From contig JAQBQJ010000042.1 of assembly GCA_028287065.1 (NCBI GenBank), positions 1 through 40,769 on the forward strand: a stretch of 40,769 nucleotides of DNA, in the 5' to 3' direction. The notes beneath the pieces are model-generated. The model was not told where the DNA came from. It was given only the letters and a program-made list of their open reading frames with translations, and made no database searches. Below, piece after piece: positions 1 through 19,859 of the stretch. How positions within the stretch are numbered: position 1 is the stretch's first letter; each line of letters begins with the position of its first letter. A program made the translations under genes and the position numbers. The DNA comes from Labilithrix sp. Lineage in GTDB: Bacteria > Myxococcota_A > Polyangia > Polyangiales > Polyangiaceae.

Positions 1-145
1 CGCTCTCGTCGTGCGCAGCACGACTTCGCCGCAGGCGATGGGGGAGGATCGTTGCGGAGCAACGAGGGGGCCTCCGGCCCCACCTGAGTAGAAGCTAAAG
101 GGACGAGCACGATTCGAGGGACGAGAATCCTGCTCGTCCATTTAG
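1..145 (+). repeat. Right part of a composite palindromic repeat element (copy A)
   Basis: Positions about 5-145 closely match 19073-19213, with scattered substitutions. Reading left to right there are four small hairpins: GTCGTGC-GCA-GCACGAC (8-24), TCGCC-GCA-GGCGA (26-38), CGTTGC-GGA-GCAACG (50-64) and GGGGCC-TCC-GGCCCC (67-81). A 51-nt hairpin follows at 95-145. Two of the triloops differ from the second copy while all stems are kept. The left half of this copy lies outside the window. No open reading frame here looks real. Positions 146-302 hold nothing I recognise apart from the likely 5' leader of the next gene. I do not recognise the family; it is probably a non-autonomous, MITE-like or REP-like element. 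Confidence 0.8.
95..145 (+). repeat. 51-nt hairpin with invariant GAGGGACGA loop (copy 1)
   Basis: Two 21-nt arms (95-115 and 125-145) flank the 9-nt loop GAGGGACGA (116-124). The arms pair with two mismatches. The outer end reads CTAAAG/CATTTAG and the inner end GATTC/GAATC. The other two copies in the window (18915-18965 and 19163-19213) have the same loop and inner end but different mid-stem bases that still pair. Confidence 0.85.
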
Positions 146-4780: not shown

Positions 4781-4815
4781 CCGGAACTAAGGACGGCGTC
4801 CGGAACTAAGGACGG
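4781..4815 (+). repeat. Two tandem copies of the 19-bp-period repeat CCGGAACTAAGGACGG
   Basis: Two identical 16-bp copies lie at 4781-4796 and 4800-4815, spaced by 19 bp. The same core and spacing recur at 13374-13443, just upstream of the RAYT transposase gene. Here no transposase is adjacent. The copies lie between the GNAT-like gene and the leader of the GPL-repeat lipoprotein gene. Confidence 0.9.
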
Positions 4816-4819
4816 GTGG

Positions 4820-4963: not shown

Positions 4964-6085
<1,122 letters not shown>

Positions 6086-13311: not shown

Positions 13312-13357
13312 GGTCGGTCCCCCCCGCGTTCGAAGCTTGGTTCGTTTCGGCCGCACG

Positions 13358-13463
13358 GCACCAAGGACAGCCACCGGAACCAAGGACGGTTGCCGGAACT
13401 AAGGACGGTTGCCGGAACTACGGGTCGCCGGAACTAAGGACGGTCGGCGGACCTAGGCACGGG
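13358..13463 (+). repeat. Array of 19-bp-period repeats (CCGGAACTAAGGACGG core)
   Basis: Near-perfect cores lie at 13374-13389 (one T-to-C), 13393-13408 and 13428-13443. Degenerate units lie at about 13358-13370, 13412-13427 and 13447-13463. Start-to-start distances are 19, 19, 16 and 19 bp. The core and period match the pair at 4781-4815. The rest of the gene-free stretch 13312-13626 holds only a short direct repeat (GGGGTCGA at 13552 and 13570). The RAYT transposase gene follows, so the array may be that family's cognate repeat; this link is inference. Confidence 0.88.
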
Positions 13464-13626
13464 AAGGCGGACGCGGCGGGCTGAAGCGACGCCGTGCGGG
13501 GCCGGCGCGAGGCGGACGGGCAGGGGGCCCCGGGCGAGCCTTGGCGGATCGGGGGTCGACAACGAACCAGGGGTCGAAAACGGGTTGCGTTCTCCCCACT
13601 CGAGATTATTGTCTGCCCTTACCAAG

Positions 13627-14364
13627 ATGGCGAATGCGAGGGAGCGAGCTTGGGGGGCGGATCGGGCGCCGAAGGACGGTGCCCGGACGGAGCAGCTGTC
13701 GTTCGCGGATCGGCCGTCTTGGGGAGGGCCTCGCCCCCGGTCAGGGCGAAAGGCGGCGCCGCGTGCGAACGTGCGGCATCGCGCGCGACCGGTGCACCGC
13801 CATTACGATGCGGTTCACGTGACGATGCGTCGCGCGAAGGGGCTGCCGAGCCTCCGTAGCGAGCTGATCCACAACGAGCTGCGCGAAGCCGTGCGCCTCA
13901 CCCGGCGTGACGATTTTCGCATCGTCGAGTACTCGATCCAGCGCGATCACGTGCACATGCTCGTCGAGGCGGACGACGCCGCGGCCCTCGCCGCCGGCAT
14001 GAAGAGCTTCTCCGTGCGAGCGGCGCGACGCATCAACACGCGGGCGCTGCGTCGTCGCGGCGGCGTGTGGGGCGATCGCTATCACCGCCGCGATCTCGAC
14101 AACCCGAGCGACGTCCGCAACGTCATCGTCTACGTGATGAACAACCACCTGAAGCACCACGAGTGGGACGACGGCCTGATCGACCCGTGCTCGTCCGCGC
14201 CGTGGTTCACCGGTTGGATGCACAAGCCCGAGCCTCCAGCGGAACCAAGCCCGGTGGAACGCGCGCGGACGTGGCTGTTGCGGAAGGGATGGCACGGCGA
14301 CGTGCGCTTCTTGAATCGGGGCGAGCTCCCGCGGGCGTTGAGAGAAGCGACGCGGATGGTGTGA
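13627..14364 (+). CDS. REP-associated tyrosine transposase (RAYT, Y1 HUH family)
   Basis: A 245-residue transposase of the IS200/TnpA-REP type, which nicks and rejoins single-stranded DNA at hairpins using one tyrosine. It has a conserved N-terminal linker (SWGGPRPRSGRKAAPR), then HRARPVHRHYDAVHVTMR, the metal-binding HUH motif HVH in QRDHVHMLVEAD, and the likely catalytic Tyr in NVIVYVMNNHLKHH. The C-terminal DPCSSAPWFTGW is typical of the delta-proteobacterial group. All key residues are present, so it may be active. I prefer the ATG at 13627; a TTG at 13585 is also possible, and neither has a good ribosome-binding site. The 19-bp repeat array lies just upstream, and a broken FN3 fragment lies downstream on the opposite strand. 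Confidence 0.88.
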   Translation: MANARERAWGADRAPKDGARTEQLSFADRPSWGGPRPRSGRKAAPRANVRHRARPVHRHYDAVHVTMRRAKGLPSLRSELIHNELREAVRLTRRDDFRIVEYSIQRDHVHMLVEADDAAALAAGMKSFSVRAARRINTRALRRRGGVWGDRYHRRDLDNPSDVRNVIVYVMNNHLKHHEWDDGLIDPCSSAPWFTGWMHKPEPPAEPSPVERARTWLLRKGWHGDVRFLNRGELPRALREATRMV

Positions 14365-16701: not shown

Positions 16702-18930
16702 TCACGATCCCAGCGGCGGCGGGGGGATCGGCTCGATCACGAACTTCGTTCCGTTGCCCTTCTCGGTCACGAAGTGAACGGCGTATCCGGCCTCGCGCAC
16801 GTAGGCCCGCACCGCATCGAGCCCGATGCCGCGTCCCGCGAGCCCGTCGCTCGCATCGCGCGTCGACAGACCCGGCATGAACACGACCTCCGCCCCATCC
16901 ACCTCCGCGCCGTCTTCGACCAGACCGAGCGCACGCGCACGCGCGACGATGCGCCCGAGGTCCATCCCCGCACCGTCGTCCTCGACGACGATCACGGGAC
17001 CGTGCTCGCCCTCCTGCGCCGAAGCCCAGATGCTTCCGACCTCGTTCTTGCCGGCGCGCGCACGCTCCTCCTCCGGTTCGATGCCATGCGCGACCGAGTT
17101 CCGTACGAGATGCGTCATCACTCCCGCGAGCACGTCGGAGAGAGCCGCCGGGATCCGCACCTCGCGCCCCTCGACGACCAGCTCGACGCGCTTGCCTTCA
17201 CGCGCCGCCCAGTCGGGCGCGCGCTCCGCGATGGTCGCGAGCGCCTCGCCGAACGGCCGTGCAGCGAGCCGCTTGATCGCCCGCGTCAGCTCGTCGTCGT
17301 GATCGCCGGCGAGGGCGAGCACCGACTCGAGATCCGACCGCTGCACCGAGGCTTGCTCGAGCGCCGCGCTGCCGATCGGCGACGCCGCGACGAAGTCCTG
17401 GCGGGTCCGATCGACCGCGGAGTCCACGCGGAACAGGCGCGCGCGGATGGCCGAGGCCGCGTCGCCCGCCACGTCGCGATCGGCGAGCGCGGCTCCGTTC
17501 TTGCGGAGGGCGGCGAGCGTCTCCTCGAGCTCCTCGAACGCGGCCTCGAGCTCGGGGAGATCGAACGCGCGCGCCTCTCCCTTCATCGTGTGCACGTGAC
17601 GGAAGATCTCCTCGACCGTGGCCATGTCCAGCGGCTCGATCGACAGCGCATCGCCGTCGAGCCGCTCGAAGAAGCGCGCCACCCGCTCGCGCGCCGTCGC
17701 GATGTAACGCACGAAGAGCTGCGCTCCGCCCGCGACGAGCCTGCGCATCGCCGCCATCCGCTTCGCGTGCTCTTCCTCTTGCGTCGCGACGGCCTGTTCG
17801 AGCTTTCGCTTCTCGCTCACGTCGGTCGCGAGCACCATCACGCGATCGACCTTCCCGTCCTTCGCGACCGGACGGAACTCGAGCTCGAGCGGCAGCAGGG
17901 CGCGCTCTCCGTCCTTGCCGCGCTGGAGCGTGACCTCCTTCGGCGCGAGCTCCGCGAACGACGACCAATCGTCGAGCGCGATGTCGAACGCGCTCTCCTG
18001 CCATTCGACGAAGGCCTGTGCCTCGACCTCGGTCTCCGCCTTCGGCCCGAACAGGAGCTGCCGGATCGGTCGGCCCTCGAGCTCGGCCGTCGCGAAGATC
18101 TTCGAGGCTTGACGCGAGACCGCGCCGCGCACCTTGCCCTCGCGATCGAACGCGACGATCGCCTGGCCCATGTGATCGAACAGGTCGCGCAGGTTCTGCG
18201 TGGCCGCTGCGAGGCGCCGTTCCCGATCTCCGATCTCCTCGCTCATGCGATTGAACGCGCCGGCGAGCTGCCCGAGCTCGTCGGTCGAGTGCACGTCGAC
18301 GCGCGTCGCGAGATCGCCGCCGCCGACGCGACGCGCAGCATCCGAGAGGCGCCGCAGCGGGCTCACGATCTGCGTGCGTGAAATCACGATGAGCACCAAA
18401 GCCGTGCCCGCCGCGAGCAGGAACGTGAGCCAGAAGATCTGGCGCCGGCTCTCCGCGAAGGCCGCGTTCTCGCGCGCCAGCGAGAACACGATCCGCGCGC
18501 GCCCCACGTTCGCGTCTCCACGCCCGACGACGAGCCTCGCGACCTCGACGCGATCGTCGTGGAACACACCGCGCCCTACCTGCGCGCCGTCGATGGGCGC
18601 GGACGCGTCACACCCGCGCTCGATCTTCGCGACCGGCTTCGTCTCCTCCTTCAGGAACACCGCCGCGCACTGCACTTCGCCGTTCCTCTCGAGGTGCCGC
18701 AGCTCGGTCTCGATCGCCTCGGTGTCCGCGAAATCCAGGGGCGCCGCGAGCGATGCCGCGAACAGATCGGCGACCATCATCGCCGCCGTCTCCTTCGACG
18801 CGAGCAGCGACTGCCGCTCGCGTCGGGTCAGCTCGCGATAGAGGAGCACCGAGACGAGGAGGAGCACCGCCAACGTGGCGATGGTCAGCTTCGTCCCGAT
18901 CGAGACTCCGCGACCTAAATCGCCGAGCAC
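16702..18930 (-). CDS. Membrane histidine kinase with CheA-like HPt domain
   Basis: A 742-residue kinase. TM1 (about 15-30) and TM2 (about 166-184) enclose a periplasmic sensor of about 135 residues. HAMP (185-240) and a PAS-like region (245-375, ending in VMVLATDVSEKRKLE) follow, then a coiled segment. An HPt-type phosphotransfer domain has the phospho-accepting His447 in HTMKG. The HATPase_c domain has N611 (HLVRNSVAHGIE), the G1 box DDGAGMD and the G2 box GRGIGL. It resembles CheA P1-P4 but lacks P2 and the CheW-like P5. The only usable start is the GTG at 18930, inside a palindromic repeat. It diverges from the YfiR-family and TonB receptor genes, a common sensing trio. No response regulator is adjacent. 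Confidence 0.9.
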   Translation of the reverse strand: MLGDLGRGVSIGTKLTIATLAVLLLVSVLLYRELTRRERQSLLASKETAAMMVADLFAASLAAPLDFADTEAIETELRHLERNGEVQCAAVFLKEETKPVAKIERGCDASAPIDGAQVGRGVFHDDRVEVARLVVGRGDANVGRARIVFSLARENAAFAESRRQIFWLTFLLAAGTALVLIVISRTQIVSPLRRLSDAARRVGGGDLATRVDVHSTDELGQLAGAFNRMSEEIGDRERRLAAATQNLRDLFDHMGQAIVAFDREGKVRGAVSRQASKIFATAELEGRPIRQLLFGPKAETEVEAQAFVEWQESAFDIALDDWSSFAELAPKEVTLQRGKDGERALLPLELEFRPVAKDGKVDRVMVLATDVSEKRKLEQAVATQEEEHAKRMAAMRRLVAGGAQLFVRYIATARERVARFFERLDGDALSIEPLDMATVEEIFRHVHTMKGEARAFDLPELEAAFEELEETLAALRKNGAALADRDVAGDAASAIRARLFRVDSAVDRTRQDFVAASPIGSAALEQASVQRSDLESVLALAGDHDDELTRAIKRLAARPFGEALATIAERAPDWAAREGKRVELVVEGREVRIPAALSDVLAGVMTHLVRNSVAHGIEPEEERARAGKNEVGSIWASAQEGEHGPVIVVEDDGAGMDLGRIVARARALGLVEDGAEVDGAEVVFMPGLSTRDASDGLAGRGIGLDAVRAYVREAGYAVHFVTEKGNGTKFVIEPIPPPPLGS

Positions 18931-18965
18931 GATTCTCGTCCCTCGAATCGCGCGCGGCGATTTAG
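18915..18965 (-). repeat. 51-nt hairpin with invariant loop (copy 2, inverted)
   Basis: The 21-nt arms are 18915-18935 and 18945-18965; the loop at 18936-18944 reads GAGGGACGA on the minus strand. There are two mismatches in the stem. Outer ends are CTAAATCGCCG/CGGCGATTTAG, different from the GGA-type stems of copies 1 and 3 but fully paired. The histidine kinase start codon (GTG, 18930-18928) lies in its left arm. Confidence 0.85.
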
Positions 18966-19162
18966 TTCCACCCTAGTGGGGACTTCGTCCCCCTCGCTCG
19001 CGGGCTCGCGAGCCTCCCCGACTCGCCTTCGGCGAACCGTGCTTCGCACGGGAAGAGCCCAAATCGTGGCCTCCTGTCGTGCGCAGCACGACTTCGCCGA
19101 AGGCGATGGGGGAGGATCGTTGCGCAGCAACGAGGGGGCCTCCGGCCCCACCTGAGTGGAAG

Positions 19163-19213
19163 CTAAATGGAGAAGCATGAGTCGAGGGACGAGAATCACG
19201 CTCCTCCATTTAG
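19163..19213 (+). repeat. 51-nt hairpin with invariant loop (copy 3)
   Basis: The 21-nt arms are 19163-19183 and 19193-19213, with loop GAGGGACGA at 19184-19192. Three stem mismatches; on the minus strand at least one would be a G-U wobble. Outer ends are CTAAATGGAG/CTCCATTTAG. It forms the right end of copy B and lies 56 bp before the preferred start of the YfiR-family gene. Confidence 0.85.
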
Positions 19214-19268
19214 GCGTGGGTTCTTCACGAGGTTCCCCGCCCGGCATGGTAAACCGCGGGCCGTAGCA

Positions 19269-19859
19269 GTGGGGTGCCGTTCGATCATAGGGCGTTTCGC
19301 GCTCGCGATGAGCGTCGTCGCCTGCGTCCTCCTCGCGCCGCGCAAGAGCCTCGGTGACGAGGTCGCGGTGCCGGTCGCTCTGCAGGCAGAGCTCCTCGCG
19401 AAGGTCGCCTCGTACGATCGCAACCTCGCCACGCGCGCCGGCGATCGCGTTCACGTCCTCATCGTCGTCAACGCGAAGAACGACGCGTCGAACAGCTTCG
19501 CGAAGCACATCACGAGCGCGCTCGGCGGCGTCGACAAGATCGGCGGCCTCCCGCACGACGAGACCACCGCGCCGTTCGGCGGCGCGAAGGCGCTCGCCGA
19601 GACCTGCCGCGAAAGGCGCATCGCGATCGTGTATCTCGCGCCGGGCCTCGCCGACGAGGTGCCGGGGATCCGCTCGGCGCTCGACGGCGTGAACGTGCTG
19701 AGCGTCGCGGCCGACGCCGCCGAGGTCGCGAAGGGCATCGTGCTCGGGTTCGACCTCGTGTCCGGCAAGCCGAAGATCGTCGTGCATCTCGGACAGGCGA
19801 AGCGCCAGGAAGTCTCGTTCAAGGCGGAGCTCCTCAAGCTCGCGAAGGTGCTCGAATGA
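19269..19859 (+). CDS. YfiR-family (DUF4154) periplasmic protein
   Basis: A 196-residue exported protein. From the GTG at 19269 the N-terminus is a good signal peptide (IIGRFALAMSVVACVLLAPRKSLG). The mature domain matches the YfiR/DUF4154 pattern: LLAKVASYDRNLATRAGDRVHVLIVVN, a central ALAETCRERRIAIVYLAPGL, then VPGIRSALDGVNVLSVAAD and the closing VSGKPKIVVHLGQAKRQEVSFKAELLKLAKVLE. YfiR proteins are periplasmic regulators of membrane sensor enzymes. Starts at 19167 (inside hairpin copy 3) and 19308 are alternatives; the first adds a non-signal, repeat-derived extension. Its stop overlaps the TonB receptor start (ATGA, 19856-19859), so the two are coupled. It probably relays signal between the receptor and the divergent histidine kinase. 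Confidence 0.8.
   Translation: MGCRSIIGRFALAMSVVACVLLAPRKSLGDEVAVPVALQAELLAKVASYDRNLATRAGDRVHVLIVVNAKNDASNSFAKHITSALGGVDKIGGLPHDETTAPFGGAKALAETCRERRIAIVYLAPGLADEVPGIRSALDGVNVLSVAADAAEVAKGIVLGFDLVSGKPKIVVHLGQAKRQEVSFKAELLKLAKVLE

Follow-up and report, generated by a model that had tools for sequence, protein, structure and literature searches.

The 299 bp element at positions 18915–19213 of the window (the whole stretch of 40,769 nucleotides analyzed here) is very probably a non-autonomous IS630 (Tc1/mariner) transposon, that is, a MITE, with a putative partner transposase made elsewhere. Two features of this non-autonomous IS630 element are new: the cargo, and the hairpin ends that hold the repeat twice. 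In the 7.09 Mb, 577-contig, 72%-complete assembly (G000), the window is contig 321; the assembly is of Labilithrix, a genus of the Polyangiales to which the genomes G007 and G009 also belong; genes were called with a home-made codon-usage finder, not taken from annotation.

The limits of the element, including the flanking C/TA and TA/G (18915–19213, no strand assigned), follow from an empty orthologous site, from a reading frame that is restored with CTAG, and from other copies. The transposon proper would comprise the 293 bp at 18918–19210, between two TA copies (18916–18917 and 19211–19212, no strand assigned) that empty sites and frame restoration suggest to be the duplicated target within CTAG. 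The left outer terminal repeat, CTAAATCGCCGAGCACGATTC (18915–18935, plus strand), matches the end of an IS630 copy from genome G071 at 18 of 21 positions and, after a spacer (18936–18944), meets an inner inverted copy (18945–18965, minus strand; 18 of 21), the two arms forming a 51-nt hairpin. The left array follows (18966–19051, plus strand), an array also known at other loci, and consists of a TTCCAC foot (18966–18971), hairpins H1 (18978–18992) and H2 (18993–19012), the sequence GAGCCTCCCC (19010–19019), and hairpins H3 (19023–19035) and H4 (19037–19051). The right array (19076–19161, minus strand) runs inverted through H4' (19076–19092), H3' (19094–19106), GGGGGAGG (19108–19115), H2' (19118–19132), H1' (19135–19149), and a GTGGAA foot (19156–19161), and leads into the right terminal hairpin (19163–19213, plus strand), composed of an inner arm (19163–19183; 12 of 21 against the IS630 end), a spacer (19184–19192), and an outer arm (19193–19213; 15 of 21). 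Compared with its own reverse complement, the element is 72% identical, and the whole is thus a palindrome made of palindromes. Positions 3–145 (plus strand; terminal hairpin at 95–145) are 91% identical to 19071–19213 and by this likeness are the right part of another copy, cut by the contig start.

The results confirm what an earlier note on this DNA had observed, with small corrections, and support its interpretation, which included a framed element, in part. The three 51-nt hairpins (95–145, 18915–18965, and 19163–19213) lie where it placed them and have the loop GAGGGACGA in common; their inner GATTC/GAATC pairing holds in general, but the hairpin at 19163–19213 reads GAGTC in place of GATTC, and in that at 95–145 one outer position is unpaired (G opposite A). 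The hairpins at 19163–19213 and 95–145 have one sense and that at 18915–18965 the opposite sense, so that the outer pair is inverted, and the eight mini-hairpins between them are present at 18978–19149, with loops TTC, a longer one, TTC, TTC, GCA, GAA, GCA, and TCC. Fold z-scores were −11.7 (RNA, plus strand), −12.8 (RNA, minus strand), and −11.4 (DNA, plus strand), with none of 200 shuffles as low in each case. No open reading frame of 100 amino acids is contained in 18915–19213; a minus-strand open frame (18915–19787) that was not called as a gene crosses the element from the flank. As a separate feature of the window, runs of a 9-base repeat (CTCGGCCCG) occur in a called gene at 5204–5547.

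The element is one of many. The outcome that would have spoken against the earlier proposal, namely that only the copies in the window exist, was not what a genome-wide covariance-model search returned: the 51-nt hairpin occurs at E ≤ 0.01 in at least 35 distinct places (one of them partial) on 23 of the 577 contigs, a hand count that is a lower bound because only 150 of 17516 candidates were scored, and one made with a model built from some of these same copies. BLAST gave at least 54 matches in the same genome (both strands counted, E ≤ 0.001, 40 of 110 candidates scored). The copies are dispersed, with unrelated flanks (flanks of 19 copies). Across genomes, element-like sequence was present in eight of 58 searched by BLAST and the 51-nt hairpin in eight of 38 searched by covariance model, and nine stretches that fit the pattern of the inner motif were located in four metagenome-assembled genomes, two of Labilithrix and two named 'Myxococcales bacterium'.

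Comparison with G007 establishes that the element is an insertion. At the orthologous site, which has no element, the window flanks joined by CTAG agree at 843 of 1034 alignment columns (82%); near the junction there are three gap runs of 13, 3, and 8 columns, 24 in all. The element lies near the 5' end, at about codon 6, of a histidine kinase gene (16702–18930, minus strand; HAMP, Hpt, and HATPase_c by Pfam), which it splits, and removal of all but CTAG restores the kinase frame, giving VKNPRLGRGVSIGTK, comparable with VNNKRL...SIGTK in G007. The neighbor on the right (19308–19859, plus strand) encodes a YfiR/HmsC-like protein (DUF4154; gene call and Pfam). A second empty site, at pdxA in G007, has two convergent genes that meet directly with no element. 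The check for empty sites in relatives that had been proposed at the outset thus succeeded at two loci, both in this one genome. The occupied site reads C-TA-[element]-TA-G, and CTAG once the element is removed. The G007 junctions themselves differ from CTAG, so the target is deduced from the window's own flanks; both empty sites fit a CTAG target in which TA was duplicated, and CTAG would have been the ancestral sequence. IS630 itself reportedly prefers the TA of CTAG, to judge by the title of a 1991 paper by Tenzen and Ohtsubo. This tetranucleotide is rare in the window's genome, with 47 occurrences in 219 kb, or 0.21 per kb vs. 2.87 expected from base composition; 10 of the 47 are at gene stops, eight within genes, and 29 elsewhere, and three of the 47 lie inside element copies.

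The insertion also altered the start of the kinase gene, the open frame of which (window 16702–18930) now begins at a GTG within the left hairpin; this in-frame GTG, with GAGG upstream, is supplied by the element. The idea that terminal hairpins in general provide an outward start codon (GAGG, then ATG or GTG CTC) was considered and dropped, since only one of seven other close outward genes is in frame (hand arithmetic).

The ends of the element copies are, by sequence match, IS630 terminal repeats. In G071, a genome of another genus of the same family, two IS630 copies with different flanks are equal at 1187 of 1190 compared bases, have ends CTAAATCACCGAGCGCGATCC and CTAAATCACCGCGCGGGAACC, and share a 373-codon open frame; the translated copy scores 205 bits as an IS630 transposase (cut-off 100) and matches DDE_3 with an E-value of 3.9e-29. 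The first of these two 21-mers occurs, with up to three mismatches, at 25 sites in the window's genome, and its backward control at none; the best arm, on contig 191, matches at all 21 positions, but the outer arms of the window copy match at only 18 and 15. Each 51-nt hairpin thus reads as two transposon ends facing each other. The path to this IS630 subgroup was a truncated IS630 in G012, which stops 11 nt inside CTAAATCACCGAGCGCGATCC, the elements' end sequence; the IS630 ends of G003 and G009 had been set aside as too different to be those of the partner. Relatives of the G012 transposase occur in eight of 108 genomes of the family at E ≤ 1e-20, the window's genome not being among them. 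It counts against the IS630 reading that no IS630 (DDE_3) transposase was found in the window's own assembly, which is 72% complete. Among the eight hairpin-bearing genomes (38 searched), six carry some IS630 transposase, and only G012 carries the partner subgroup, with a truncated close relative of the partner transposase (E ≤ 1e-20). We conclude that mobilization was most likely by an IS630-type transposase encoded elsewhere.

According to the mechanism that we propose, a putative IS630 transposase supplied in trans would bind the outer arms, excise the element, and paste it into the TA of a CTAG. Each end bears the terminal repeat twice, the inner one inverted, and so is a 51-nt hairpin; as cargo the element carries a local hairpin array of gene ends, in duplicate and in inverted orientation.

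Other short elements with IS630-type ends were seen in the family. Near-identical pairs are present in G071 (L419 and L420, with differing flanks) and G014 (L431 and L432), and further short elements or fragments occur in G115 (L426–L430) and G128 (L421–L425). All have similar ends, whereas their interiors are different and often palindromic; MITEs of this kind may be widespread in the family. Six related elements in G003, G006, and G009 (L073, L076, L081, L084, L085, and L087) carry a 43–44-nt CTRAAT/ATTYAG hairpin at one end and have different GC-hairpins as interiors.

The arrays that form the cargo also occur apart from the element. The pattern of CCCCTC, stem, and GAGCCTCCCC was found 15 times in the window's genome, 35 times in G007, 21 times in G009, 16 times in G012, and 21 times in G020, with 0–1 occurrences in the backward controls there; in the others of the 56 genomes its frequency is background or close to it. 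A set of 97 arrays was analyzed (29 of 35 from G007, 21 of 21 from G009, 20 of 21 from G020, 16 of 16 from G012, 7 of 15 from G000, 2 of 3 from G030, and 2 of 3 from G011), in which most arrays inside full G000 elements were left out. In this set 454 of 493 stem positions pair, compared with 59% for shuffled partners, and there are 72 distinct stems. Pairing at the outer positions reached 87 of 90 in G012 (15 arrays, L330 being left out; shuffle mean 61.8, maximum 78) and 107 of 120 in G020 (20 arrays with 19 distinct stems; shuffle mean 45.1, maximum 70), and G009 has a tandem pair of arrays with 94% identity in the 85 nt that follow the stem but with three of six stem pairs different in both arms. 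Of the 97 arrays, 80 have a co-directional gene as their nearest upstream neighbor, with 70 arrays within 90 nt of its stop and 10 distant; for 14 that gene is opposite, and three have no gene in the compared sequence. Between genomes, five pairs of upstream genes show homology that extends to the C-terminus, one pair being from a single genus and the other four each spanning two genera (one weak local match was not counted); they include, each in two genera, an ssb pair (both SSB, PF00436) and an Omp85/POTRA, BamA-like pair (the G000 member being the one tested). The gene-end arrays (loci L317–L414), present in five or more genomes, combine constant flanks with matched stems that are hypervariable; they may form a separate class of RNA or DNA elements, of which literature searches returned no description. 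At four G020 loci (L339, L340, L345, and L347), a long gene-specific hairpin spans the stop codon and lies between stop and array; by reading, some are T-rich afterwards, like an intrinsic terminator.

The compensatory change that the earlier note had seen in the stems of the terminal hairpins is real. In an alignment of 23 distinct 51-nt hairpins from the window's genome, without duplicates, cut, 49/50-nt, or degenerate hairpins, or later-fetched copies, two-sided changes occur in 9 of 21 pairs (mean 6.0 in shuffles, of which 2 of 500 reached 9) and in 46 cells (shuffled mean 16.1; 0 of 500 as high), compared with 3–13 cells in slid controls; the weakest measure, further pair types, gave 17 (shuffled mean 14.7; 32 of 500 as high). 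Across seven variable columns, the arms of one hairpin agree in 6.5 on average, vs. 4.3 for random partners, and the two ends of one element agree in only 2–4 (five complete elements), which indicates that the matching is local to each hairpin. Stem mismatches comprise 4 G.T, 5 A.C, and 9 others among 437 cells, few cells in all and counted without columns 15–16, which are mostly unpaired. By reading, two solo hairpins (L403 and L406) are poorly paired and join an arm of one end type to an arm of the other, a structure that deletion between the two ends would produce. Since the covariation is local and free of wobble bias, copying from arm to arm accounts for it no less well than selection does. 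A change in one arm would be copied to the other during replication, by quasipalindrome template switching, a process in which single copying events create or restore matched stems (PMC8794818); in the part of that account consulted, it was shown on RNA genes, and its authors call the evidence for short-stem maintenance there circumstantial, whereas here it is proposed for transposon-end hairpins. We infer that the matched changes reflect DNA copying between arms and not necessarily a need for folded RNA or DNA. The further step of the earlier note, from compensatory change to selection on folded DNA or RNA, is therefore not supported, the arms being transposon ends, with G.T about as frequent as A.C and arm-to-arm copying enough: selection on the hairpin may also act, and the covariation is real, but alone it is no evidence of a functional fold. 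An extension of this proposal, possible but held at less than even confidence, is that the element's palindromes are self-renewing, with arm copying at the DNA level keeping the pairing and leaving the sequence free, most strikingly in the inner array with its kept flanks and many different matched stems, and with the gene-end class inheriting that pairing and being picked up and spread by IS630 elements.

The hypothesis that the element is instead a structured RNA, either an ncRNA or a 3'-UTR element, that has its fold under selection and merely happens to be repeated, would account for the very low folding energies, the two-sided stem changes, the position of 70 of the 97 inner arrays no more than 90 nt downstream of a co-directional stop, and the five homologous upstream-gene pairs. 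It is nevertheless unlikely. None of five Rfam matches in 18600–19500 reached the gathering score, and G.U pairs are not in excess over A.C (4 vs. 5 in the terminal hairpins; 6 vs. 6 in the array stems, for 67 distinct stems left after five not pairing in register were dropped; small numbers in both cases). Moreover, full elements lie beside convergent, tandem, and divergent genes alike, and the element reads as an insertion with transposon ends. Far less probable still is that it belongs to the REP/REPIN type and owes its mobility to a Y1 (RAYT) transposase: its ends are hairpins and the genome has 13 Y1_Tnp matches, one of them in the window (13804–14145), but four genomes (G003, G006, G012, and G020) carry the hairpins with no Y1_Tnp match at E ≤ 0.001, and the ends match IS630 repeats with TA duplication. 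A REP/RAYT partner was rejected because Y1_Tnp does not track the hairpins across genomes. The IS200-like (Y1_Tnp) gene of the window (13792–14364) has tandem CCGGAACTAAGGACGG repeats upstream (13355–13465), and the repeat occurs also at 4781–4818.

The relation of the element to stop codons bears on one further alternative. Element ends in the window's genome were listed by hand from copies, one degenerate end (C114 left) being left out, and 23 of the 37 ends face an incoming gene, 12 an outgoing gene, and two have no gene in the compared sequence; all three window ends are among the 12 with genes running away. In 17 of the 23 facing genes the stop (TAA, TGA, or TAG) is within the element's terminal tetranucleotide, five stop 2–24 nt before the element, and one reads 50 nt into it. 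This coincidence could mean that the element is a stop-codon module, or a transcription terminator acting in both directions, and that selection and not transposition has spread it, a reading that we consider very unlikely and rejected, given that genes point away from 12 of 37 ends, that the window copy splits a gene, and that no terminator-like site was present in 18700–19500 on either strand (0.6 expected; criterion, a G+C-rich hairpin and then a T run), a scan for promoters and terminators over that interval having found neither. Because CTAG is rare and 10 of 47 are gene stops, target choice together with loss of harmful insertions can yield the stop pattern. The element begins C-TAA, so that a gene ending in the TAG of CTAG keeps a stop (C-TAG to C-TAA) and its protein is unchanged, which makes insertion at such stops harmless to the protein; the excess of stop positions over the 10 of 47 CTAGs probably reflects loss of harmful insertions.

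A non-autonomous IS630 transposon belongs to a known class, and the earlier statement that no described family has this layout is accordingly right only in part: IS630-mobilized MITEs such as RUP are described, and for the layout itself literature searches returned no description. RUP, of Streptococcus pneumoniae, for which mobilization by IS630-Spn1 has been proposed (PMC2229807, PMC3049150), is, in the portions of these accounts compared, like the element short and non-coding, with IS630-like terminal repeats, a TA target, and a partner proposed to act in trans. RUP, however, is 107 bp, vs. 299 bp for an element with repeat-spacer-repeat hairpin ends and an inverted array cargo, and its proposed partner is in the same genome, unlike here, where the putative partner was found in a related genus. 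IS630 and ISY100, autonomous elements of the IS630-Tc1-mariner group, have TA as their target, which is duplicated on insertion, according to the part of the account consulted (PMC2170065); terminal repeats and TA duplication are common to them and to the element, which, unlike them, has no transposase gene. Correia/NEMIS and ERIC are likewise palindromic MITE-like repeats with TA at their ends (PMC2229807), but have other sequences and, in the account compared, neither hairpin-doubled ends nor an array cargo. REP, BIME, and REPIN sequences, in the descriptions compared, resemble the element as small palindromic intergenic repeats, but use a tyrosine transposase, a partner that here does not track the hairpins.

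The results have three implications. The ends of this transposon double as stop codons, and so would permit low-cost residence at gene ends. Textbook covariation, which many accept as proving that an RNA is functional, here occurs in the transposon ends of a bacterium, where arm copying explains it at least equally well, so that covariation alone could mislead a search for RNAs. Finally, the element points to a numerous class of variable-stem gene-end arrays in Labilithrix-like bacteria.
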